Source of the DNA: Bacteroidales bacterium
GTDB taxonomy: Bacteria > Bacteroidota > Bacteroidia > Bacteroidales > UBA932
Direction of reading: 5' to 3'
Length of the DNA: 53,866 nucleotides
Assembly (NCBI GenBank): GCA_017458265.1
Contig: JAFTFV010000029.1
Location: forward strand, 1 to 53,866
The notes under the pieces are model-generated. The model made no database searches and was not told the DNA's origin. It saw nothing but the letters and a program-made list of their open reading frames with translations. Made by a program: the position numbers and the translations under genes. Shown one piece after another: positions 6,797 through 43,407 of the stretch (the stretch's first letter is position 1; the number at the start of each line of letters is the position of its first letter).

Positions 6797-9700
6797 ATGA
6801 ATCGAGTAACACTAAGCGCCTTTTCATCAGTTCTTTTTCTTCCTTTTTCTTTTTTATTATCCGATTATTCAGTCCTGGCCCAGGTTACAGGAGACGCCCT
6901 TTACAAGCGCGGTGCCACAGTTCTTGAGAACACCTATCCTCCATCTCCGGAGCCATCGTCAGCGGTTAAGTATTCAGACCTTCCGATGTCCTACTGTGAA
7001 GGCATCGTAGATCTTGCCGTTCCCATTTATACCCTAACTGGCCGTGAGTTGGACATTGACCTGTGTTTCCATTATCGCAGCGGCGGCATCCGCTTGGATG
7101 AGATTGGCGGAGTTGCCGGTCTTGGATGGACCCTTGAGGCTGGTGGATGTATCACCAGGACAGTTGTTGACATGCCGGATGAGTTTGAGTCTGTCTACAT
7201 GACCCACGGGATGCCAAGTGGCAGTCTTCTAGCGGATTTGGAATCAATGACGGAGAATACATCCGGCAATGCATTCCTCCGTGATGTACTGTGGCATTAC
7301 AGGGACGTGAGTCTTGACCGTTACAGTTACTCATTCTGCGGTCTTTCCGGAACGTTTGTCATCCTTGATGACGGGTCAGTCTTCCACTTGAGCGGTCCAG
7401 GAGTGGAGATAGTGCCACAAACTGATGAGACTTCCCAAGGGATATCCAGTTTCACAGTACGCGGTCCTGATGGAACAGTTTACATGTTCGGCGATAAGGA
7501 GAGTACCCGCCACTGCGGCAGTTCCGAGTCCCAGATCACTCCTGGTATCGGACAGGCAGATGAATGGACTGCTACCACGGCCTGGCACCTGAGCAGCATC
7601 GCCAGCGCCAGCGGGTGCGAGACGGCCACTTTCAACTATACCGATGGAGATATCTGGAAACGTGACATATGTCCTTTAACGGAGACGGCGGCATTTACGC
7701 AGAGCGGTCTTAACGGATACAGTCAGACCTTTTCAAATCAGAGCAACTACATCAGCAGCCGCTACACTGCCCGCTTCTTGAGCAGCGTCACCCTCAGCGG
7801 TTACACTGCCGTTTTCACATATTCATCAGATACTGGAAATCACTATCACACGGGAGGGGACGGCTGGTCATCATCTCAGAACTGCCCTCGCCGGCTTACC
7901 CGGGTGGATATCAGTTACGACAACAACCTCCTTCAGCGCGTGGAGGTGGGAACGGAGAAAGACCTCTATGACGGCCGTATCATCCTTGGTAGTCTCCGTT
8001 ATTATCGTGGCGGAGAGCTGGATGACAAGTGGAACTTTTCTTATGCAACCCGTACCAGCACTGTATCACGCTATTCACGTGACTGGTATGGTTACTATAA
8101 TTCCGAGTGTGAAGACGGCGGCTCTTCTCGCAACCGTATCTGCCCTTTCACGGTCAATCAGTCGTATGGGACCCTTCAACGCAGTTATGGTACTCCCAAT
8201 GGGTCTGCCGCTTCATATATGAGTCTTACCCGTATTAGCCATGACAAGGCAGTTACGACCATCGAGTACGAAGGCAGCGAGATTACCAGCCAGGGACAGA
8301 CGGCACCGGTGGGCATACGTGTCAAGCGCATCGCCGTTCAGGAGGATCGCTTTTCAGTCCTGAATCGCACCTTCACTTATGAGAATGGCGTATGTATCGG
8401 CCCATTTGTTCCGCTTTCCGATTACTATACCGATGTCAGCTGCACCCAGTCTTTGGAATCCAGTAGCGGAGGTATCCCTGTAGGCGTCGTATACACATGG
8501 GGCTTCTCTGTTCATGAGAGCTCCGTCACGGGTGGTTTGGGAATCGAAGCGAGCCGCATTCTTTACGGCAGGGTGACTGAGGACGTGACCAGCGGCAGTC
8601 TGTTGTCAGCGGGCGGCCCTCGGACGGTTTATACGTTCTCTACCGGCGGAGTCCGCCTCTCCTCCGTGAGTACTATTTCCCGTTTTCCCGACACTTGGTA
8701 TGACAGGTACAATGCGGCTTCACAGTCGGTCGGTGTTCCCATCCATCCCTGGACTGGAGTCAGGAGCGGATATGATGAGAGCGGTCCCGACAGTCCGGCC
8801 CTCCTGATAAAGAAAGAGACCTATGCCTGGGAAGGCAGTGGCCACACCCTTGTCGAAAGTGAGGATTACTCCTACGACACCCCTCGGCGGCGCAGCGTCC
8901 TTCTGGACTACAAAGTGAGCCAAGTCATGCAGCGCTATCAAAGCGGAGACCTTCGGTACTCAGACATGTATCACTATCCTGTCTATGGCCACGATTCCCC
9001 CGGCAACGTTCCTGTCAAATCCGTTCGCGTCAGCTACCACCCGGGTGGGAATGACACGACTACTGTAAGAAGCGCATATAAAGGTCGCGGAGACCTTAGC
9101 ATTCCACCCCGCCTGTCAAGTGTCGCCCATGACAATGGTGACCGTACCCGTCTTGTCCGCTACACTTACCCTGATACATGGACAGATGGTCCAACATGGG
9201 CCACATCCCTTAAACAGGCCCACGTGCTGAGTGTGCCTCTGAAGACGACATATGGTTATGTGGACAGTTCCTATAATGGCAATATCCCATACCAGCCGCT
9301 GTTTGTCCCCATAATAGTCGAGCCCGTCATCATACAGGATGGACCGGTACTGTACGAGACTGACCGCGAATATGGCTGGTATGAAATCGGCGGTGCACAG
9401 CGTCTGATGCCCCACCGAACCATTGAGTTCACAGACGGCCTCGAGTCTTGGAGTGAGGAGATCCTTTCCCGTGACACTTGGGGAAACCCTTCATCCGTAA
9501 AGATTAAGGGGCATCCCATCACTTTCGTTGAGTGGGGCCTTAACGGTCTCTATCCATTGACCATCACGGAAGGAACGGGAGCGGATGCTCATATAAATAC
9601 GTATACATGGCTTCCGGGCATCGGACTTACGTCAGAGACCACCCCTTCGGGAGTAACCACTTCTTATGAGTATGATGGCGCAGGCCGCCTAACTGCTGTA

Positions 9701-12700
9701 AAAGATGAGTCTGGCCGCACAATAGAGTCGTATGAGTACCATCTCATGGCCGATGCCTCTGGTCGCCGGAGCCGTCGACAGAGAACATACCGCGATGCTT
9801 CCGGGACAATCTGTTCTGAGAGCGTCCTATGGTGGAACGAACTCGGTCTTCTGAAGGAGGCTATCTCTATCGGCCGTTCCGGAACTGGGTCTGACCTTGT
9901 AACGGCTTCTGACAGGGATTATCTCCTGCATGATGATGCAAGAACCTGGCTCCCTTATCCCGCGGATACAGATGGTGGGCTATTCCAGGCAAACGCATCC
10001 GCCGCAGCTGCTACATATCACTCAAATGCCCTTGCCTATGTAATGAAAGCATATGAGGAGTCATCCAGAGACCGTGTTCAGCGGACTGCCCTTCCAGGGT
10101 ATGCCGGTTCACACGAGGATGTACATGATACAAGGGTGAATCCGTCTTTCCCGCTGCTTGAATGGGATGAGACTGACAATACTGTTGTCCAGAATGGCAC
10201 ATGGCCTCAGTGGAGCGTAAGGGACGATTATACTGTGGATGCAGACGGACGCCGTAAGAGCGTTCTCACGGACGGAGTCGGCCGCACCCTTGGTACTACC
10301 TCAGACGTAAGATATGTCTATGACAGACACGATCGCCTCCGTGCTGTTGCTCCGGGTGGGACAGTTCTAACCGATACGCTTAATATGTGGCGCTATCGCT
10401 ATGACAGCATAGGCCGTCTGAACGCCAAGGCTCTACCTGGGTGTACAGACGCGATGCGCTTCAGTTATGATACGGAAGACAGGATAATCAGCGTGGCTGA
10501 CGGTGATGGTACCCGTGAAATGGAGTATGACGTTCATGGCCGCATAGTGCGTGTATATCACAATTCAACTGCAGCGGGTAGCGTCCGGGGACTAATTGAA
10601 GAACATAGCTACGACAGCGAGTTGCCTGCTGCTACGGCACTCTTTGTCCAGGCTGGAGAGCCGGTATCGTGGAGCGGTCCAGTGACCGGGCTTGAGACTG
10701 GTAACAGAATGGCTTTGATCGGCACTGAAGGCAGCGTCGAAGGATATATCAACTCAGTCATACGCTATGATAACCGCGCACGCAAGTCCGTACAGGTGAG
10801 CCTGTATCCTGATGGAGGCATCCACAAGACGAACTATGAATATGACTTCAGCGGCGAAGTGATACGGGAAGTGGAGTCATATACATGTGGCTCCTCCAGC
10901 GATGTTCTGGAGCACCGATATACCTTCGACAACTGGGAACGGTTGGTATCCTCAGTTTCCACATTGTGCATCGGCGCAAACAATACTGTGTCAAGGGATA
11001 GTACCGTATACAGTTATGATGCCCTTGGCCGATTGGGAAGCCGCGTGTCATACAGTGGCGTCTCCCCCACCCTGACCACAACTGACACCTATACCCTCCA
11101 GGGCTGGCTGCAGGAGAGAGCTGTCTCCACCTCCGGCAGCGGAGTCATCTATAGCGAGTCCCTTGACTACGATTCGGTCACAGGTCTCAGCGGTATAACG
11201 CCATCGTATACTGGGAAGATAACAAAGAAAACTCAGACGATAGCTTCGTCATCGGCCGGCGCTACTTCCACAAGATACGAGGGCTATGCTTACGACTCCC
11301 TAGCTCGGCTTAGCCGTGTGGTCCCATCACTGGGCGGAGCGGCAGTGTACAACACTGACCGGAGAGGGAACGTTCAAAGCATTGTTCATTATCGTCCCAA
11401 TGGAAGCCAGCTATTTTCGGAAGAGTTTGCCTACGGTGGTGACAGGCTTACCTCTTTGACAAATCTCACCCATCCGGATGGTGTGCAGTTCCAATACGAC
11501 GCTATGGGCCGCATGGTCACGGATGGCATGTCCGGGACAGAAATAAACTATAACAGGATAGGAGAAGCGCAAAAAGTCATCTCCGGTGGCTCAACTTTGG
11601 TAAAATTTTCCTATCTTGCAGATGGTACCCTGGAGAGTGCAGCGGATGCAGGAGGAGAAGGTCTGGTGTACCGCGGCTCTTTGATATATAGAAGAGGCAG
11701 TAATGGAACGCTCAACCTGGAAAGCGCATCGTTTGGTGCCGGCCGTCTCACTCCTTCCGGAGTGCGTTATCATGTGACGGACCATCTTGGCAGTGTGATG
11801 GCCGTCGTTGACGGCACCACCGGCGACGTTCTTGAATCCGGCATATACGGAGTGTACGGAGCACGCACTGCGCTGGTCGCTAATACCGGCACCACGAGTG
11901 GAACTCGGCAGCGCTTTACCGGCAAGGAAGACATGGGAGTAGAGTTCGGTGTCCCATATACGGACTTCGGTGCCCGGCACTATGCCCCCGCCCTTGGCCG
12001 CTGGACCACGCCCGACCCCCTGAGCGAAGACTACTACCCCACCAGCCCATACGTCTACTGCAACGGTGATCCTGTGAACCTGGTGGATACGGATGGAAGA
12101 GATATATTCATCTCTAATTATAAGTATTCAGCTGGAAAACTATATAATGAATTTGGAAAGACTGTTTTACTTAAGGATGTACCTCGCTTTGTTAGAAAAG
12201 CATTCAATGCTATTCAGATAATTAATAGCACAGAGAAAGGAGCACAATTAATTAGCAATCTTTCCGACTCTGATAATAGTTTTTACATCAGAAAGTCAAA
12301 TATAAGTTCCTTTTCCGCCCTAAATGTACGAGGCGCTAATGCTAAAGCCATTAATGAACAGAACGCAGAAAAATATAGCCCTATTGAAGTTGGGTCAGGA
12401 GGGATAGTAAAATGGAATTCACATGGAGCATTAATACCAACCACAGAGGGAGGGAAAGTAAATCCTGTCATTGACCTCGCTCATGAACTGTTTCATGCAG
12501 CAGATGCTGATAATGGGCTATTAGATAATCGAAAAGTTATGGGATTGAAAAAAAATGAATGGCAAGCTGTCTTCAATGAAAATTTGTTACGTGATCAGTT
12601 GAATCTTCCATTAAGAACACATTATACTTGTGGATTCGACGAGTCTGGACGATTCATAAATGGTGTTGGCCCAGAAATGTTGAGCAACGGACAACCAATA

Positions 12701-12721
12701 TTTCCTTCCTGGTATCATTGA
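6797..12721 (+). CDS. RHS/YD-repeat protein with C-terminal HExxH metallopeptidase-like toxin domain
   Basis: A 1974-residue polymorphic-toxin-type protein. It has a signal peptide (about residues 1-29, cleaved near VLAQ). A long beta-rich shell domain follows, then from about residue 960 multiple YD repeats (such as YEYDGAGRL, YRYDSIGRLN, YSYDALGRL). The RHS core lies at about 1650-1770, including YHVTDHLGSV, RFTGKEDMG, DFGARHYAPALGRW and PVNLVDTDGRD. After the core the variable tip (about 1771-1974) changes to AT-rich DNA. It carries HELFH (His1896, Glu1897, His1900) and a later NEWQAVFNENLLR...LPLRTHY segment. These resemble the NleD-like M91 zinc peptidases seen as RHS tips; zinc binding and toxicity are inferred. 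No T9SS tail domain or T6SS partner is seen, so the export route past the periplasm is unknown. Confidence 0.9.
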   Translation: MNRVTLSAFSSVLFLPFSFLLSDYSVLAQVTGDALYKRGATVLENTYPPSPEPSSAVKYSDLPMSYCEGIVDLAVPIYTLTGRELDIDLCFHYRSGGIRLDEIGGVAGLGWTLEAGGCITRTVVDMPDEFESVYMTHGMPSGSLLADLESMTENTSGNAFLRDVLWHYRDVSLDRYSYSFCGLSGTFVILDDGSVFHLSGPGVEIVPQTDETSQGISSFTVRGPDGTVYMFGDKESTRHCGSSESQITPGIGQADEWTATTAWHLSSIASASGCETATFNYTDGDIWKRDICPLTETAAFTQSGLNGYSQTFSNQSNYISSRYTARFLSSVTLSGYTAVFTYSSDTGNHYHTGGDGWSSSQNCPRRLTRVDISYDNNLLQRVEVGTEKDLYDGRIILGSLRYYRGGELDDKWNFSYATRTSTVSRYSRDWYGYYNSECEDGGSSRNRICPFTVNQSYGTLQRSYGTPNGSAASYMSLTRISHDKAVTTIEYEGSEITSQGQTAPVGIRVKRIAVQEDRFSVLNRTFTYENGVCIGPFVPLSDYYTDVSCTQSLESSSGGIPVGVVYTWGFSVHESSVTGGLGIEASRILYGRVTEDVTSGSLLSAGGPRTVYTFSTGGVRLSSVSTISRFPDTWYDRYNAASQSVGVPIHPWTGVRSGYDESGPDSPALLIKKETYAWEGSGHTLVESEDYSYDTPRRRSVLLDYKVSQVMQRYQSGDLRYSDMYHYPVYGHDSPGNVPVKSVRVSYHPGGNDTTTVRSAYKGRGDLSIPPRLSSVAHDNGDRTRLVRYTYPDTWTDGPTWATSLKQAHVLSVPLKTTYGYVDSSYNGNIPYQPLFVPIIVEPVIIQDGPVLYETDREYGWYEIGGAQRLMPHRTIEFTDGLESWSEEILSRDTWGNPSSVKIKGHPITFVEWGLNGLYPLTITEGTGADAHINTYTWLPGIGLTSETTPSGVTTSYEYDGAGRLTAVKDESGRTIESYEYHLMADASGRRSRRQRTYRDASGTICSESVLWWNELGLLKEAISIGRSGTGSDLVTASDRDYLLHDDARTWLPYPADTDGGLFQANASAAAATYHSNALAYVMKAYEESSRDRVQRTALPGYAGSHEDVHDTRVNPSFPLLEWDETDNTVVQNGTWPQWSVRDDYTVDADGRRKSVLTDGVGRTLGTTSDVRYVYDRHDRLRAVAPGGTVLTDTLNMWRYRYDSIGRLNAKALPGCTDAMRFSYDTEDRIISVADGDGTREMEYDVHGRIVRVYHNSTAAGSVRGLIEEHSYDSELPAATALFVQAGEPVSWSGPVTGLETGNRMALIGTEGSVEGYINSVIRYDNRARKSVQVSLYPDGGIHKTNYEYDFSGEVIREVESYTCGSSSDVLEHRYTFDNWERLVSSVSTLCIGANNTVSRDSTVYSYDALGRLGSRVSYSGVSPTLTTTDTYTLQGWLQERAVSTSGSGVIYSESLDYDSVTGLSGITPSYTGKITKKTQTIASSSAGATSTRYEGYAYDSLARLSRVVPSLGGAAVYNTDRRGNVQSIVHYRPNGSQLFSEEFAYGGDRLTSLTNLTHPDGVQFQYDAMGRMVTDGMSGTEINYNRIGEAQKVISGGSTLVKFSYLADGTLESAADAGGEGLVYRGSLIYRRGSNGTLNLESASFGAGRLTPSGVRYHVTDHLGSVMAVVDGTTGDVLESGIYGVYGARTALVANTGTTSGTRQRFTGKEDMGVEFGVPYTDFGARHYAPALGRWTTPDPLSEDYYPTSPYVYCNGDPVNLVDTDGRDIFISNYKYSAGKLYNEFGKTVLLKDVPRFVRKAFNAIQIINSTEKGAQLISNLSDSDNSFYIRKSNISSFSALNVRGANAKAINEQNAEKYSPIEVGSGGIVKWNSHGALIPTTEGGKVNPVIDLAHELFHAADADNGLLDNRKVMGLKKNEWQAVFNENLLRDQLNLPLRTHYTCGFDESGRFINGVGPEMLSNGQPIFPSWYH

Positions 12722-37269: not shown

Positions 37270-38495
37270 CAGGAGAGATATTTTCCGTGACAACGGCAGT
37301 AACGAAGACCGCTGCCGCAGGGACAGGGATCATCGGCAGCTACGTGCGGGATGGAGAAACCTATCGGGAAGTCGGAATCAATGGCGCCGAAACCGCTGGA
37401 TACAGTGGGCTCCGGCATTTTCCAGGAAGGATAATCTTCTGCAGGGGTTTCTTCAAGTCCTTTGGGAGCGATATCCGCAAGTTTCCAGGAGTCACGGTCG
37501 CACAGGCATTCCCCGGTTTCATTGGCGCTGCGGCCGCGGAGACACCACTTGGGGATGCTGTCGGCATAGTCACACACTATCTTGCAATATCCTTCCCATG
37601 CCGACTGAGGCACCTCCCCGGCACGAGGGGCATAAAAGATTGCGTCAAACAAGACTGGATTGGGGGCGTCAAGGTACTGGGCTTCAATCCAGGTGTCATG
37701 TTCGGCCTTTACAAGGGAGAAGCCGCTGTATCCCAGGCGTTTGTACAGCTCATCAAGGGCCATGCCCTCCGGCGTGCGCATTCCGACGATGAAATAGGGT
37801 GCACCTGCACCGGCCTCGTCGACATCGGCAAGGGAGAAATGCTTCACTCCCCTTTTCACTTTGTGCTCCTTACGCATTTCAAAGACAAGGGGGACGTCGT
37901 CAATGCTCGGGGATACCATGTTGTCTCCCCATTCGTTTTCGTATCGGCAAAGCTTGATGAGGGGGCTTCTGGTTATCATTTCCTCAAGTGAACGGAAATC
38001 CTTGTCCTTATGCTTTTCGTACCAGGCGAAAACCACGTCAAGAAAAGATTCCGTGGAGAGGATTCCGTAAAGGTTAAGGTACCCCAGACTTATTTTTTCA
38101 AACTCGTACTGGCCGCTTCTTTCCATCCTGCCGAAGACGGAATCAATCTCCGGAGACACTATTTCATAGATTTCGCGGCTAATCCACACCTTGTGGAAGT
38201 TCTCGTCCGAATCGTCATATTCAACTATTCCGGAGACTTCCACTATGGAGGGATAGTCTGCATAATCCATGTAGCGCACCCTTTCCGGACCGGCATGAAC
38301 AAGGTCCTTCAGAAGGCGGATGTCCCTTTCCATGAGATGAGACATCCACCTTCCGGGTTCCTCTTTGATATACCCGCACAGTTTGTCGAGCATCTGGGAC
38401 TTCCTGAGGCGTGACGGAAGGTCACTCCCCAGGATATCTCCGATGTCCTGAAGCTGGGCTTTTTCAAACCGGTCCAGTATGGTGCGAAGAGCCAT
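37269..38495 (-). CDS. SEC-C motif protein
   Basis: 408 residues, cytoplasmic, family not recognised over most of its length. The C-terminus is a SEC-C zinc motif, DPCPCGSGLRYCRCHGK (about 390-406), with cysteines spaced C-x-C-x8-C-x-C. SecA and many unrelated proteins carry this tail for protein or ribosome contact. The N-terminal 60 residues look like a helical SAP/Rho-N-like domain. Its ATG overlaps the gcvPB stop (TAATG), so it is made together with the glycine cleavage enzymes. Confidence 0.8.
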   Translation of the reverse strand: MALRTILDRFEKAQLQDIGDILGSDLPSRLRKSQMLDKLCGYIKEEPGRWMSHLMERDIRLLKDLVHAGPERVRYMDYADYPSIVEVSGIVEYDDSDENFHKVWISREIYEIVSPEIDSVFGRMERSGQYEFEKISLGYLNLYGILSTESFLDVVFAWYEKHKDKDFRSLEEMITRSPLIKLCRYENEWGDNMVSPSIDDVPLVFEMRKEHKVKRGVKHFSLADVDEAGAGAPYFIVGMRTPEGMALDELYKRLGYSGFSLVKAEHDTWIEAQYLDAPNPVLFDAIFYAPRAGEVPQSAWEGYCKIVCDYADSIPKWCLRGRSANETGECLCDRDSWKLADIAPKGLEETPAEDYPSWKMPEPTVSSGFGAIDSDFPIGFSIPHVAADDPCPCGSGLRYCRCHGKYLS

Positions 38496-39904
38496 TATTC
38501 AAGCGTGTCCTGATACTTGAGAATAGGGTTGCGTGCCGCTGCAGTCTCGTCCGGGCGGGAAATAGGTGCATTATGAGGTGCACCCTGCAGGATGGTGGGA
38601 TCCTGGGCAGCTTCTGCCGCAATCTTCCTCATCACCTCGATGAAGGCGTCAAGGGTCTCCTTGGACTCGGTTTCCGTAGGTTCAATCATGAGGGCCTGGT
38701 GGAAAAGGAGCGGGAAATAGATTGTAGGGGCATGGAAGCCGTAATCGAGAAGCCGCTTGGCGATATCAAGGGTCGTAGCGCCGTGAACATCGTCGTGGCC
38801 GCCGTCATTGATGAGGCCGTCGTACACGAATTCATGCTTGCAGACGCCGTCGATAGGGAGCTTGTACAGATCCTTGAGGCTTTCCTTGATATAGTTTGCG
38901 TTAAGGACTGAGTACTCGCCCACTTTCCTCAGATTCTGCTTTCCGAGAGAGAGGATGTAAGCATAGGCCTTGAGTATGACACCGAAGTTTCCGTGGAAAC
39001 CGGAGACAGTGATGTCAGGAAGGCAGTCCTCGAGTCTTTCTGCAACACCTACAGGGCCGCTGCCGGGGCCGCCGCCGCCGTGAGGGGTGGAGAAGGTCTT
39101 GTGCAGGTTCAGGTGCATGATATCGAAGCCCATGTCACCGGGACGTACAACACCCATCAGAGGATTCATATTGGCGCCGTCGTAATAGAGAAGGCCGCCT
39201 GCCTCGTGAACGAGCTTTGCGATGGTCTCGATTTCCGTTTCGAAAAGTCCCAGCGTGTTGGGATTTGTCATCATGATGCCTGCGATGCTGTCATCCAGAA
39301 GGGCCTTCAGGGCCTCGACGTCTATCCTGCCGTTGGAGAGGGACTTCACCTCCACCACCTGGAGACCGCATACTGCTGCCGATGCAGGATTGGTGCCATG
39401 GGCGCTGTCGGGGACGATGACCTTTGTACGGCCAAGGTCTCCGCGGTTCATATGGTACTGGCGCATGATCATGAGGCCGGTGAGCTCTCCGTGTGCTCCG
39501 GCGCAGGGGTCAAAGGTAAAGGTATGCATGCCGGTGATGGCGGCAAGAGCCTTGTTCATCTCCTGATATACCTTCAGTGCGCCCTTTGCAAGACCGGCAT
39601 GAACAAGCGGATGCAGACCGGCAAAGCCAGGAAGGGATGCAACCTCCTCATTGATCTTGGGATTGTACTTCATGGTACATGAGCCAAGAGGATAGAAGCC
39701 TGTGTCCACGCCGAAGTTCATCTGTGACAGATTGGTATAGTGGCGGACAACATCCGGTTCGCTCACCTCCGGAAGAAGAAGTGCACTTCCCCTCTTGAGG
39801 GCGGCGGGAATCTCTGCATGAGCAGGATAGCGGTTTTCAGGAAGTGAGTAACCTGTACGTCCTTCCCTGGATACTTCGAATATGAGTTTGTCGTAGTATT
39901 TCAT
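38495..39904 (-). CDS. gcvPB: Glycine dehydrogenase (decarboxylating) subunit 2
   Basis: 469 residues, the PLP-carrying half of split P-protein. Signatures: GSCTMKYNPKINEEVASLPGF near residue 75, HGTNPASA, YDGANMNPLMGVVRPGD and the PLP-lysine NLHKTFSTPHGGGGPGSGP (about 267-285). It decarboxylates glycine and passes the aminomethyl group to the lipoyl arm of GcvH. It begins two bases after the gcvPA stop. Confidence 0.96.
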   Translation of the reverse strand: MKYYDKLIFEVSREGRTGYSLPENRYPAHAEIPAALKRGSALLLPEVSEPDVVRHYTNLSQMNFGVDTGFYPLGSCTMKYNPKINEEVASLPGFAGLHPLVHAGLAKGALKVYQEMNKALAAITGMHTFTFDPCAGAHGELTGLMIMRQYHMNRGDLGRTKVIVPDSAHGTNPASAAVCGLQVVEVKSLSNGRIDVEALKALLDDSIAGIMMTNPNTLGLFETEIETIAKLVHEAGGLLYYDGANMNPLMGVVRPGDMGFDIMHLNLHKTFSTPHGGGGPGSGPVGVAERLEDCLPDITVSGFHGNFGVILKAYAYILSLGKQNLRKVGEYSVLNANYIKESLKDLYKLPIDGVCKHEFVYDGLINDGGHDDVHGATTLDIAKRLLDYGFHAPTIYFPLLFHQALMIEPTETESKETLDAFIEVMRKIAAEAAQDPTILQGAPHNAPISRPDETAAARNPILKYQDTLE

Positions 39905-39906
39905 GG

Positions 39907-41235
39907 CTATCCCTCCTTGATTACTTTAACGAGCTGATCAATCTCTTCCTTGCTGCGCTTTTCGGTGACGCAGAAGCTGACATAGCCTTCTTCCGTGTCG
40001 AGAGCGGCAAAGAAACCGGCTTTTTCAAGCCTTTGCTGCATATAACCCGGGAACTCCTTCGGCTTCAGGACAAATTCCTTGAGGAAAGGCTTGCTAGGAT
40101 AGACTTCCTCGAACTTTCCGGTCTTGAGAAGTTCGTCATAGAGGTAGTGAGCGCCGTCGGAACTCAGGCGGTTCACTTCCTTCATGCCCTGAGGGCCCAT
40201 AAGTGAAAGGTAAACCGTAACCCAGAGAGCCATGAGCGACTCGTTGGAGCATATATTGGAGCTTGCTTTTTCCCTCTTGATGTGCTGTTCCCTTGCCTGA
40301 AGTGTGAGAACGAAAGCCCTGCGGCCTTCCTTGTCGGCTGTCTGGCCTACGATGCGGCCGGGCATCTTTCTCACATGTTCCTTCTTAACGGCCATGAAGC
40401 CCACATAAGGGCCACCATAGCTGAGAGGAAGCCCAAGGGACTGTCCGTCGCCTACGGCAATGTCGGCGCCCCATTCTCCGGGAGTCTTTATAACTGCAAG
40501 GGCGGAAGGGTCACAATACTGCACGAAGACGGCACCCGCTGCATGGATTGCATCGGCAAAACCTTCGAGGTTTTCGATGATGCCGTAGCGGTTGATGGAA
40601 GGAAGGATGACTCCGGCAACGTTTCCGGAGGCCAGTTCCGCCTTGAGGGATTCAAGGGAGGATTCGCCTTCCTGCTGCTCTACATAGCCGATTTCGACTC
40701 CGTGGAAGCGGGCATAGTTTGCAACGACCTTAAGCACATGAGGCAGAAGCGTCCTGGACAGGAGCACCCTTGTCTTTTTCCTTGCTATGGCCGGGCACAT
40801 CATCATTGCTTCTGCCGCGGCGGTGGGGCCGTCATACATCGAAGCGTTGGAAACGTCCATGCCGGTGAGGGCGCAGATCATGCTCTGATACTCGAAAATG
40901 TATCGGAGCGTTCCCTGGGAAATCTCACACTGGTAAGGAGTATATGCGGTAAGGAATTCCGAGCGGGAAGTGATATAAGGTATCACCGAAGGGGTGAAAT
41001 GGTCATATGCTCCTGCCCCCACAAACACCTTGAGACGGCTGTTCATCGCATCAAGGGCCTGGAAGTAATCCCTGATTTCCTGCTCCGACATGGCGTCAGG
41101 AAGGGCATAGGCGCCCTTTTTCCTGCAGGAGACAGGGACGTCGGAATAAAGATCGGCGAGCTGTTTCACGCCGATCCTGTCCAACATAGCCTTTATATCC
41201 GCATCGGTATGCGGAATGTAAGGATTCTGGGCCAT
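39907..41235 (-). CDS. gcvPA: Glycine dehydrogenase (decarboxylating) subunit 1
   Basis: 442 residues, starting MAQNPYIPHTDADIKAMLD. An earlier in-frame start would run into gcvH. Typical segments are FVGAGAYDHFTPSVIPYI (about 74-91), TPYQCEISQGTL, GMDVSNASMYDGPTA and LPLSYGGPYVGFMAVKKEH. It lacks the PLP lysine and pairs with GcvPB to form the active P-protein. One base separates its ATG from the gcvH stop. Confidence 0.96.
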   Translation of the reverse strand: MAQNPYIPHTDADIKAMLDRIGVKQLADLYSDVPVSCRKKGAYALPDAMSEQEIRDYFQALDAMNSRLKVFVGAGAYDHFTPSVIPYITSRSEFLTAYTPYQCEISQGTLRYIFEYQSMICALTGMDVSNASMYDGPTAAAEAMMMCPAIARKKTRVLLSRTLLPHVLKVVANYARFHGVEIGYVEQQEGESSLESLKAELASGNVAGVILPSINRYGIIENLEGFADAIHAAGAVFVQYCDPSALAVIKTPGEWGADIAVGDGQSLGLPLSYGGPYVGFMAVKKEHVRKMPGRIVGQTADKEGRRAFVLTLQAREQHIKREKASSNICSNESLMALWVTVYLSLMGPQGMKEVNRLSSDGAHYLYDELLKTGKFEEVYPSKPFLKEFVLKPKEFPGYMQQRLEKAGFFAALDTEEGYVSFCVTEKRSKEEIDQLVKVIKEG

Positions 41236-41236
41236 A

Positions 41237-41617
41237 TTATTCGCCGATAAATGCCTTGTATGCAGCAGCGTCCATAAGAGCGTCAAGCTCTGATGCGTCG
41301 CTCATTTCAACCTTGATTATCCAGCTGCCGAATGCGTCCTCGTTGACCTTTTCGGGAGCATCCTCAAGCTCTTCATTCACCTCCACTACGGTACCGGAAA
41401 CGGGGCTGATAAGGTCTGAAGAGGCCTTTACGCTCTCAAGGGCGCCGAATTCTTCACCGGCGTCGACGGTGTCATCAACGTCAGGCATGTCGACATAGGT
41501 GATGTCACCCATTTCCTTCTGTGCATAATCGGAAACGCCGATAACAGCAATGTTTCCTTCAACTTTTACCCATTCGTGAGACTCGGAATACTTGAGTCCT
41601 TCAGCAATTTTAGACAT
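41237..41617 (-). CDS. gcvH: Glycine cleavage system H protein
   Basis: 126 residues. The lipoyl-lysine sits in EFGALESVKASSDL (Lys at about residue 64), inside the hammerhead fold beginning at HEWVKVEGNIAVIGVSDYA. GcvH shuttles the aminomethyl group between GcvP, GcvT and the L-protein. Eight bases separate it from gcvT. Confidence 0.97.
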   Translation of the reverse strand: MSKIAEGLKYSESHEWVKVEGNIAVIGVSDYAQKEMGDITYVDMPDVDDTVDAGEEFGALESVKASSDLISPVSGTVVEVNEELEDAPEKVNEDAFGSWIIKVEMSDASELDALMDAAAYKAFIGE

Positions 41618-41625
41618 AGTGTTTA

Positions 41626-43407
41626 TTACTTTTTATAGTTAGTTTGATAAAATCTTTTCTTGACAACCTTTCCGGGGAAAGTCTTCTTGCGGATTCTGAT
41701 CTGCAGCGGGGTATCCAGTGCCGAATATGCCTTGTCTACAAGTGCGAAGCAGACGCTCTTGTCAAGGGAAATGGAATGATATCCGGTTGTAACGACGCCG
41801 ACGGGCTGTTCTTCCAGGGTCTCCACGGGATAACCCGCACGCGGAATGGCCTTGTCCTCTATTTCGATGCCGACGAGTTTCTTTTCCAGGGCACCGGCCT
41901 TCTGGGCAAGAAGCGCTTCTTTGCCGATGAAATCCTTCTCATACTTGCAGAACATCCCAAGGCCGGCCATGACAGGGCTGATTTCCGGGCTGAGTTCATC
42001 TCCGTAAAGAGGGAGTCCCGCTTCAAAGCGGAGGGTGTCACGGCATCCAAGGCCGCAGGGAACCACGCCTGCGGCAAGGAAAGTCTTCCATAGTCCGACT
42101 ATGATTTCCGGAGTGGTATAAATCTCGAAACCGTCTTCTCCGGTATATCCGGTACGGCTGAGTATGAGGCGCTTGCCCTTGAATTCGAGGTCGCAAAAAG
42201 TATAGAACTCGAGGCCTTCGGCTTCTTTCATGCCAAGGACCTTGATGAGGGTTGACTCTGCTTCCGGGCCCTGGAGCGCAATCTGGCCCCATGCGGTGGA
42301 TTCATTGCGGACCTTGCAGTCAAAGCCCTTTGCATGCTCCTGAATCCAGGCAAAATCCTTGTCGATATTCGCAGCGTTGACAACGAGGAGGAAAGATTCC
42401 GGCTTGAATTCCCTGTAGACCAGAAGGTCGTCGACCACTCCGCCGTCGGGATAGCACATCATGCCGTAAAGGACCTTTCCGGCCTGGAAACCACGGATCT
42501 CATTCGTGAAGATATAGTTCACGAAATCCTCTGCGCCGGGGCCTTCAACAAAGATTTCTCCCATGTGCGACACATCAAACATACCCACTTTCTGCCTTAC
42601 GGCAAGGTGCTCCTCAGTGATTGAGGAATACTGGATGGGCATCATGAATCCTGCAAAGGGACTCATCTTGGCTCCAAGGGCAACGTGCTCTCCGTAGAGG
42701 CATGTCCTCTGAAGATCATCGATAATTTCACTCATAAGTTTTAGTAATTCTGTATTGGTTAGTTTGTTTATTCTGAGGTCTTCGGCCTGTGCGCCTTTCT
42801 CTTCCTGCAGCTCGCCGCAAATGTCCACGGCAGCTATCTGCACGGGCGCTGCAGCAACTTTCCTGAGTATGGCGGCAACGTCCGGGAGCGTATGGCTGCC
42901 CTGAGTCCAGGCAGTGCGCGCAAAATCCCTTGACATTATGTCCTTGTCAAGGGAAATGTACATCCTCTCCCCTCTCCTTTCGTCAAGCCAACCTTCAGGA
43001 ATGTCCGCGGGGCAGCCTTCCGGGCCGATGGTAAGGACGCTGCGGAGCATCGGATTGGTATCTTTCATGGTCTTGACCCAGCCGCCGCAGCTGAGAATGC
43101 CGCCAAATTCGGGGGCCTGGTCGTCAGTATGATTGTCCAGAAGAATGAGATTGAAAGGCTCCTTTTCCCTGGCGGCAAGAATATGAGTCATGTAGTGGTA
43201 ATCACCGCTGTCGATGAATCTCACGCGCGGAAGGGTGGCAGGAAGTGAATCTGCAACAGCTTTTTCGGCAGAGGAGCTACAGTAGCATGAGGTGCCTTCC
43301 AGCCCCGCAAAGGACAGGATATGAGCCTGATGGCCATTCTCCTGAAGCCAGAGGGGGAATTCCTCTTCTTGGTATACCCCGGAAAAATCTGTTACAAGTA
43401 CTTTCAT
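41626..43407 (-). CDS. gcvT: Arginase-fold domain joined in frame to aminomethyltransferase GcvT
   Basis: 593 residues in one open frame. Residues 1-224 are arginase-like, with GDYHYMTH, the metal motif LLDNHTDDQAPEFGGILSCG, MYISLDKDIM and AAVDICGE replacing the usual D-x-H-x-D, S-x-D-x-D and E positions. Residues 225-593 are a complete GcvT: GAKMSPFAGFMMPIQYSS, FDVSHMGEI, SRTGYTGEDGFEIY, RDTLRFEAGLPLYG. GcvT transfers the methylene group to tetrahydrofolate. Between the two lies an A/C-rich stretch (42736-42774) that looks like a leader, followed by ATG at 42735; a separate GcvT may start there. I chose 43407 because the promoter element lies between it and the earlier ATG at 43428. The arginase part's substrate is unknown. 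Confidence 0.85.
   Translation of the reverse strand: MKVLVTDFSGVYQEEEFPLWLQENGHQAHILSFAGLEGTSCYCSSSAEKAVADSLPATLPRVRFIDSGDYHYMTHILAAREKEPFNLILLDNHTDDQAPEFGGILSCGGWVKTMKDTNPMLRSVLTIGPEGCPADIPEGWLDERRGERMYISLDKDIMSRDFARTAWTQGSHTLPDVAAILRKVAAAPVQIAAVDICGELQEEKGAQAEDLRINKLTNTELLKLMSEIIDDLQRTCLYGEHVALGAKMSPFAGFMMPIQYSSITEEHLAVRQKVGMFDVSHMGEIFVEGPGAEDFVNYIFTNEIRGFQAGKVLYGMMCYPDGGVVDDLLVYREFKPESFLLVVNAANIDKDFAWIQEHAKGFDCKVRNESTAWGQIALQGPEAESTLIKVLGMKEAEGLEFYTFCDLEFKGKRLILSRTGYTGEDGFEIYTTPEIIVGLWKTFLAAGVVPCGLGCRDTLRFEAGLPLYGDELSPEISPVMAGLGMFCKYEKDFIGKEALLAQKAGALEKKLVGIEIEDKAIPRAGYPVETLEEQPVGVVTTGYHSISLDKSVCFALVDKAYSALDTPLQIRIRKKTFPGKVVKKRFYQTNYKK

Follow-up and report, generated by a model that had tools for sequence, protein, structure and literature searches.

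A rare in-frame fusion of an arginase-fold domain to the glycine cleavage protein GcvT in an uncultured gut genus of Bacteroidales

Introduction

GcvT domains are found in longer chains in dimethylglycine dehydrogenase and sarcosine dehydrogenase, in which the N-terminal partner is a flavin adenine dinucleotide (FAD) amine oxidase. Here, we describe a fusion with a different partner, encoded on a contig of 53,866 nucleotides (JAFTFV010000029.1, assembly GCA_017458265.1) from a Bacteroidales bacterium of the GTDB lineage UBA932; this whole stretch of DNA is called the window below. One open frame on its minus strand, with no interruption, encodes an arginase-fold domain of 224 amino acids, here labeled ARG, followed by the aminomethyltransferase GcvT. 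Like the two dehydrogenases, ARG-GcvT joins a complete GcvT to an N-terminal partner in one chain, but that partner is of the arginase fold rather than an FAD amine oxidase, and the fusion is found in three species only.

ARG shares with the arginase/agmatinase family (PF00491) a kinship at the level of sequence profiles and all six metal ligands. It is shorter, at about 220 residues compared with about 280 to 300 for most of the canonical members aligned, and it departs from them in having GDYHY in place of GGDHS, no DP after the SxDxD motif, a cysteine at the position of the catalytic histidine, a variable residue at the position of Glu277, and additional invariant cysteine and tryptophan residues. 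Membership in UPF0489, which we take to be the Pfam model for peptide arginases, was considered and rejected, as PF12640 matched 1 of 40 ARG family members, at an E value of 0.077. The peptide arginase OspR is a comparably atypical member of the arginase fold; it does without the histidine proton shuttle and Glu277, according to an excerpt of the report on that enzyme (PMC10028609).

Results and Discussion

The fusion is genuine, rare, and kept in three species

ARG matches were present in 239 of 400 genomes of the window's genus. Among the matches listed, which are the stronger ones from these 239 genomes, three frames are of fused length: those of the window (602 codons from stop to stop), of UBA4360 (G073, DGSO01000020.1; 602 codons), and of RGIG2692 from goat omasum (G070, JAFRPW010000033.1; 586 codons). 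A second sample comprised 150 genomes of the genus with at least 90% completeness; 101 of them carried ARG, and the same three alone had a fused-length frame. The proteins of UBA4360 and RGIG2692 are 91% and 73% identical to the fused protein of the window, respectively. In the window and UBA4360, the sequence at the joint is INKLTNTELLKL-MSEII, and RGIG2692 has INKLTNIQLLKL-MSEII; the residues spanning the joint in the fused protein of the window are LTNTELLKLMSEIIDDLQR. When the joint DNA was sought with up to 3 mismatches in 399 genomes of the genus (the window's own not among them), it was recovered from UBA4360 and RGIG2692 only.

Between the window and UBA4360, the ratio of nonsynonymous to synonymous divergence (dN/dS) of the ARG part is 0.107 at a dS of about 1. 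This value falls inside the range of unfused ARG genes (median, 0.166; range, 0.090 to 0.271), based on the 101 of 102 computed pairs with dS below 1.6, which are not independent of one another. The ARG part of the fusion is therefore under purifying selection and is not decaying. Since the frame has been kept in two further species and its ARG part is constrained over such a distance, its openness is not due to chance, and we conclude that the fusion is genuine, rare, and evolutionarily kept. A search of plasmid proteins returned 869 matching records; among the matches listed, four align to the GcvT part only, and a fifth, annotated as an ordinary gcvT, extends further upstream into a stretch without an annotated gene. 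Judged from titles and the openings of abstracts, the papers listed by the literature search included nothing that we recognized as an ARG-GcvT fusion or as the ARG family.

A preliminary description of this locus, made from the sequence alone, had proposed a single frame composed of an arginase-like domain and a full GcvT, with 593 residues for the fusion and 369 for GcvT, at the head of the gcv genes. Translation and matches to TIGR00528, PF01571, and PF08669 confirmed the frame, whose strand (minus) had been left unstated; both sizes are exact; and gcvH, gcvPA, and gcvPB do lie downstream on the same strand. The GcvT part exceeds the curated cut-off of TIGR00528 (376.4 bits versus 235.85, over model positions 1 to 361 of 362), also matches PRK00389 (427.3 bits), and is above the cut-offs of PF01571 (GCV_T) and PF08669 (GCV_T_C). 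Judging from its family, it should act as a normal T protein.

Origin from two adjacent genes

We compared the locus with the best 80 of 383 related loci, which are thus its closer relatives. Two of these 80 are fused, while in 48 the genes are separate but adjacent (at most 60 nt apart) or overlapping. In another 24 they lie on the same strand with a wider gap (2 below 1 kb, 18 at 1 to 2 kb, and 4 at 2 to 3 kb); gcvT is on the opposite strand in 1 and absent from the fetched stretch in 5. In unfused close relatives, ARG typically ends in EDLRINxETNxELY plus about 10 residues and then a stop codon, and the gcvT ATG lies a few bases from that stop or overlaps it. The fused joint corresponds to the unfused C terminus of ARG minus about 8 to 10 residues, with stop and spacer absent, and homology to unfused relatives continues through ...INKLTNTELLKL. 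The preliminary description had taken the joint for an A/C-rich 5′ leader followed by its own ATG. Its composition is indeed initiation-like, but the joint is not merely a leader, since its codons align with the C terminus of unfused ARG.

These comparisons indicate that the gene pair itself is widespread in the genus and that its fusion is derived. ARG often lies immediately upstream of gcvT in this genus, with no more than about 30 nt between its stop codon and the start of gcvT; an in-frame loss would have removed the last 8 to 10 or so ARG codons, the stop, and the spacer, such that ribosomes translating ARG would continue into GcvT. An origin by frameshift was ruled out, given that relatives conserve the present frame both before and after the joint. 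The preliminary description had also pointed to relatives with a stop codon and two separate genes as evidence that would speak against a fusion. Such relatives exist, in the 48 loci above; as two further species share the joint, they show the fusion to be derived and not false.

The loss probably occurred once. In a concatenated alignment without the joint (47 of the 72 rows having both parts, with ARG identity of at least 49% and fused rows kept), a single clade of fused genes was not rejected by the approximately unbiased (AU) test (p-AU = 0.768), and the tree constrained to such a clade surpassed the free tree by 20 log units. Two results speak against a single origin: free trees separate RGIG2692 from the window and UBA4360, and ARG alone gives the single clade a p-AU of 0.08. 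Neither ARG alone nor GcvT alone (P = 0.21) settles the matter (the coverage filters let through 80 of 81 rows for ARG and 73 for GcvT). Given the position of RGIG2692 and the value for ARG, there may instead have been two origins or a transfer of the joint.

An internal start for GcvT within the fused frame

The preliminary description had raised the possibility that the locus makes both the fusion and a free GcvT, and the internal ATG at the joint lends support to it. Scored with a start-site matrix built from 40 open reading frames (ORFs) of the window, this ATG reached 5.35. Only 2 of the 40 true starts score as high, and of the 330 other in-frame ATGs inside genes, none does. The 25 bases upstream of it are 76% A+T, compared with a median of 44% for internal ATGs, none of which (0/330) reach 76%, and a median of 72% for 69 unfused gcvT starts of relatives. 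Of the 4 leucine codons at the joint, 3 are CTA or TTA, which account for 63 of 1,484 leucine codons across the ORFs of the window. The joint DNA is similar in UBA4360 and RGIG2692. An A/T-rich gcvT start region thus appears to have been retained within the fused frame, where internal initiation would probably yield GcvT by itself as well. We judge dual products, the fusion and free GcvT, to be likely.

Several points weigh against this interpretation. The starts used to build the matrix were simply the farthest ATGs of each ORF. Upstream of the internal ATG, position −3 is occupied by C, although an A there is a positive determinant of initiation in Flavobacterium johnsoniae, also a member of the Bacteroidetes, in an excerpt of a study (PMC6847099) that also describes members of this phylum as lacking Shine-Dalgarno sequences. 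Synonymous identity at the joint is raised without being extreme (ranks 76 of 570 and 139 of 517 windows); taken alone, it is not strong as proof of dual coding. In the three fused sequences, no consistent pattern of RNA folding was seen around the internal start.

A second fusion partner of GcvT

Another frame of similar construction was found in 1 of 139 gcvT-bearing genomes of the genus sample (G121, L183:1267-3066 on the minus strand, G121:C23). Its 600 residues comprise the catalytic domain of a lipoate-protein ligase (LplA; PF21948) and GcvT, with an ATG at the joint. As in ARG-GcvT, an upstream operon gene is in frame with gcvT and the ATG is kept, the difference being the partner, here a lipoate-ligase catalytic domain. 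This frame suggests that GcvT tolerates N-terminal neighbors and that the stop codon ahead of it may have been lost more than once in the operon.

ARG is arginase-like by profile and has a probably altered active site

By itself, the ARG of the window had no match in Pfam, NCBIfam, or PDB sequences at E ≤ 1. Among 40 members of the ARG family, 33 matched PF00491 at this threshold (best E value, 3.1e-9), the window copy being unmatched. Two genes scored above the PF00491 cut-off of 22 bits, one from a relative outside the genus in G466 (47.7 to 47.8 bits) and one from within the genus in G242 (27.2 bits). An ARG profile matched 21 PDB sequences (best E value, 1.3e-4), every one of them an arginase, an agmatinase, or a related amidino- or formimino-hydrolase, and hhalign of ARG against ten PF00491 members, nine from other genera of the order and one from the genus, gave 97.2% at an E value of 3.4e-11. 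By these profile comparisons, the ARG family is arginase-like in fold.

Residue conservation was assessed in the 145 loci whose tblastn piece covered 181 or more query positions (matches that were shorter or split being omitted), which yielded 102 distinct sequences; residue numbers are those of the 593-residue form starting at ATG 43407. The metal ligands, described as intact in the preliminary account, are so throughout the family: H71, D91, H93, D95, D154, and D156, within the motifs GDYHY (68 to 72), DNHTD (91 to 95), and SLDKD (152 to 156), are invariant in 102/102 sequences. Cys107, Cys197, Trp110, and Trp167 are likewise invariant, and Cys43 is present in 99. In the hhalign alignment, Cys107 faces the invariant histidine of canonical members, so that the catalytic histidine expected of canonical ureohydrolases is missing, its position in ARG being assigned by alignment rather than structure. 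Among the four PDB alignments shown, Cys107 is opposite histidine in two (1gq6 and 4dz4) and opposite valine in the others, 4rhm and 4rhl, which we take to be trypanosome-type entries. From its spacing, we infer that the corresponding residue of Escherichia coli SpeB is His163. In an excerpt of PMC8049259, this residue is described as a guanidinium contact, and it is called critical for catalysis in work cited there.

Glu199 aligns with the glutamate known as Glu274 in SpeB or Glu277, 43 residues beyond the last metal-binding aspartate in both ARG and canonical members. This position is E in 75 of 102 sequences, including the window, and G in 20, A in 5, S in 1, and D in 1. Canonical members have two more residues than ARG in the loop that follows SxDxD. 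The metal site has therefore been kept, while two features of guanidinium hydrolysis are lost or loose, given the invariance of Cys107 and the variability at Glu199. ARG has probably remained a binuclear-metal hydrolase while its active site changed, and the cysteine at the catalytic-histidine position suggests a substrate other than arginine or agmatine. However, the atypical arginase OspR works without this histidine and with serine at the Glu277 position (excerpt of PMC10028609), so ARG may yet have a ureohydrolase role.

Linkage of ARG and gcvT in the genus and beyond

We took a census of 100 strong ARG places from 99 of the 101 ARG-bearing genomes of at least 90% completeness, omitting partial matches in G122 and G159. 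ARG and gcvT share a contig at 81 of the 100 places, with ARG upstream on the same strand in 54 and on the opposite strand in 27, and 79 of these 81 pairs are within 5 kb. Of the remainder, 16 are on a contig other than that of gcvT and 3 are in genomes without a gcvT match. Across the 150-genome sample, counting the two partial matches, ARG is present in 98 of the 139 genomes that have a gcvT match and in 3 of the 11 that lack one, so that the two genes are only loosely associated by presence. A role shared by ARG and glycine cleavage within the genus is plausible from this arrangement.

In an order-wide sample of 295 genomes, two strong ARG relatives were found outside the genus, and weak matches to the ARG profile (G027, G029, G030, and G033) proved to be canonical PF00491 genes. 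The relative in G466 (L137; L187:5202-5945 on the minus strand) has no gcvT within the 11 kb read, and that in G576 (L138) has none within the 3.7 kb read, its next gene encoding a 5′-nucleotidase (PF06189).

Other genes also occur between ARG and gcvT. In some lineages this is a lipoate-protein ligase gene, and in some relatives it encodes a protein of about 485 residues with a lipoprotein-like start and an FGE-sulfatase domain (PF03781; L113:4717-6171 on the plus strand).

The gcv cluster of the window

The fused frame has two candidate starts, ATG 43428 (600 residues) and ATG 43407 (593 residues), and its stop codon ends at 41626; its upstream neighbor is a divergent obg (Table 1).

Table 1. 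Coordinates of the fused gene and the genes downstream of it in the window
Feature	Positions	Strand	Basis and remarks
ARG, arginase-fold domain, 224 aa	42736..43407	−	Translation; family profile match; alternative upstream ATG 43428
GcvT (aminomethyltransferase), 369 aa + stop	41626..42735	−	TIGR00528, PRK00389, GCV_T, GCV_T_C; own ATG 42733-42735
Joint	42736..42774	−	Shortened ARG C terminus plus initiation-like region for GcvT
gcvH, next downstream, 8 nt from fused gene	41237..41617	−	PF01597, E 8e-41
gcvPA (glycine dehydrogenase, N-terminal subunit)	39907..41235	−	PF02347, E 5.6e-126
gcvPB (glycine dehydrogenase, C-terminal subunit)	38495..39904	−	PF21478, E 1.4e-25

After gcvPB, a 408-residue protein (37272-38495, minus strand) has a SEC-C motif and no further Pfam match; by eye, similar genes lie close to gcv or to ARG in two further genomes (L182:4757-5974 and L186:2616-3800). 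Elsewhere, the window holds an open frame of 1974 residues at 6797-12721 on the plus strand.

Explanations for the fused frame

We think it likely that the frame is an in-frame fusion that arose when the stop separating two coupled genes was lost, that internal initiation also supplies GcvT by itself, and that ARG is an altered hydrolase. An indel in sequencing or assembly that merges two genes, placed near 42780 in the preliminary description as a possible undoing of the fusion, is extremely improbable. UBA4360 and RGIG2692 are metagenome assemblies, the window's genome is in 67 contigs, and 48 of the best 80 loci do have two adjacent genes. However, the same frame and joint recur in separate assemblies of two other species, with homology on both sides of the joint, which for practical purposes excludes such an error. 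The stop may, with somewhat less than an even chance, have been lost by a tolerated accident without benefit, leaving the fusion minor or harmless and GcvT made mainly by internal initiation. Such an account is compatible with stop loss and internal initiation as we favor them, which claim no benefit. It accords with the rarity of the fusion (3 among the matches listed from 239 ARG genomes and 3/101 in the second sample), with the LplA neighbor in frame with GcvT in G121, and with an internal start that looks strong; it sits less well with an ARG part that is not decaying and with a frame that has stayed open across a dS near 1, as well as in a third species at a greater distance.

The preliminary description went further, linking the breakdown of guanidino or amidine compounds to one-carbon supply. 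In that case, ARG would hydrolyze such a compound (guanidinoacetate, for instance, giving glycine and urea) and pass the product to glycine cleavage. Kinship with arginases, six invariant metal ligands, close linkage to gcvT in the genus, the absence of any other PF00491 match from the window's genome, and an OspR that functions despite similar changes in its active site (excerpt of PMC10028609) all favor this proposal. We nevertheless find it unlikely, and the guanidino-compound idea weak, since the catalytic-histidine position is always cysteine (102/102) and the guanidinium-binding glutamate varies (75/102). The shortened loop after SxDxD, the incomplete linkage (ARG in 3/11 genomes without a gcvT match, and no gcvT near the G466 relative), and the lack of a supporting paper in the literature search count against it as well. 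The earlier interpretation overall thus holds for the fused frame, its place in the operon, the metal ligands, and possible dual products, with its proposed chemistry the weak part. A more speculative thought, to which we give a similarly low probability, is that ARG represents a new family of arginase-fold hydrolases with a cysteine beside the binuclear metal site, which would yield glycine or a one-carbon donor from some small conjugate and work with glycine cleavage, and which in three species would be joined to GcvT to give both tethered and free T protein.

Under stop loss between coupled genes with continued internal initiation, this locus would be a clean example from nature of two neighboring operon genes merging into a single frame, with the start region of the second seemingly persisting in the codons of the first, set in a phylum described, in an excerpt of PMC6847099, as having no Shine-Dalgarno sequences. 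It also points to an uncharacterized arginase-fold family, with an active site that departs from those of canonical ureohydrolases, whose link to glycine cleavage is close in this uncultured genus of gut bacteria.
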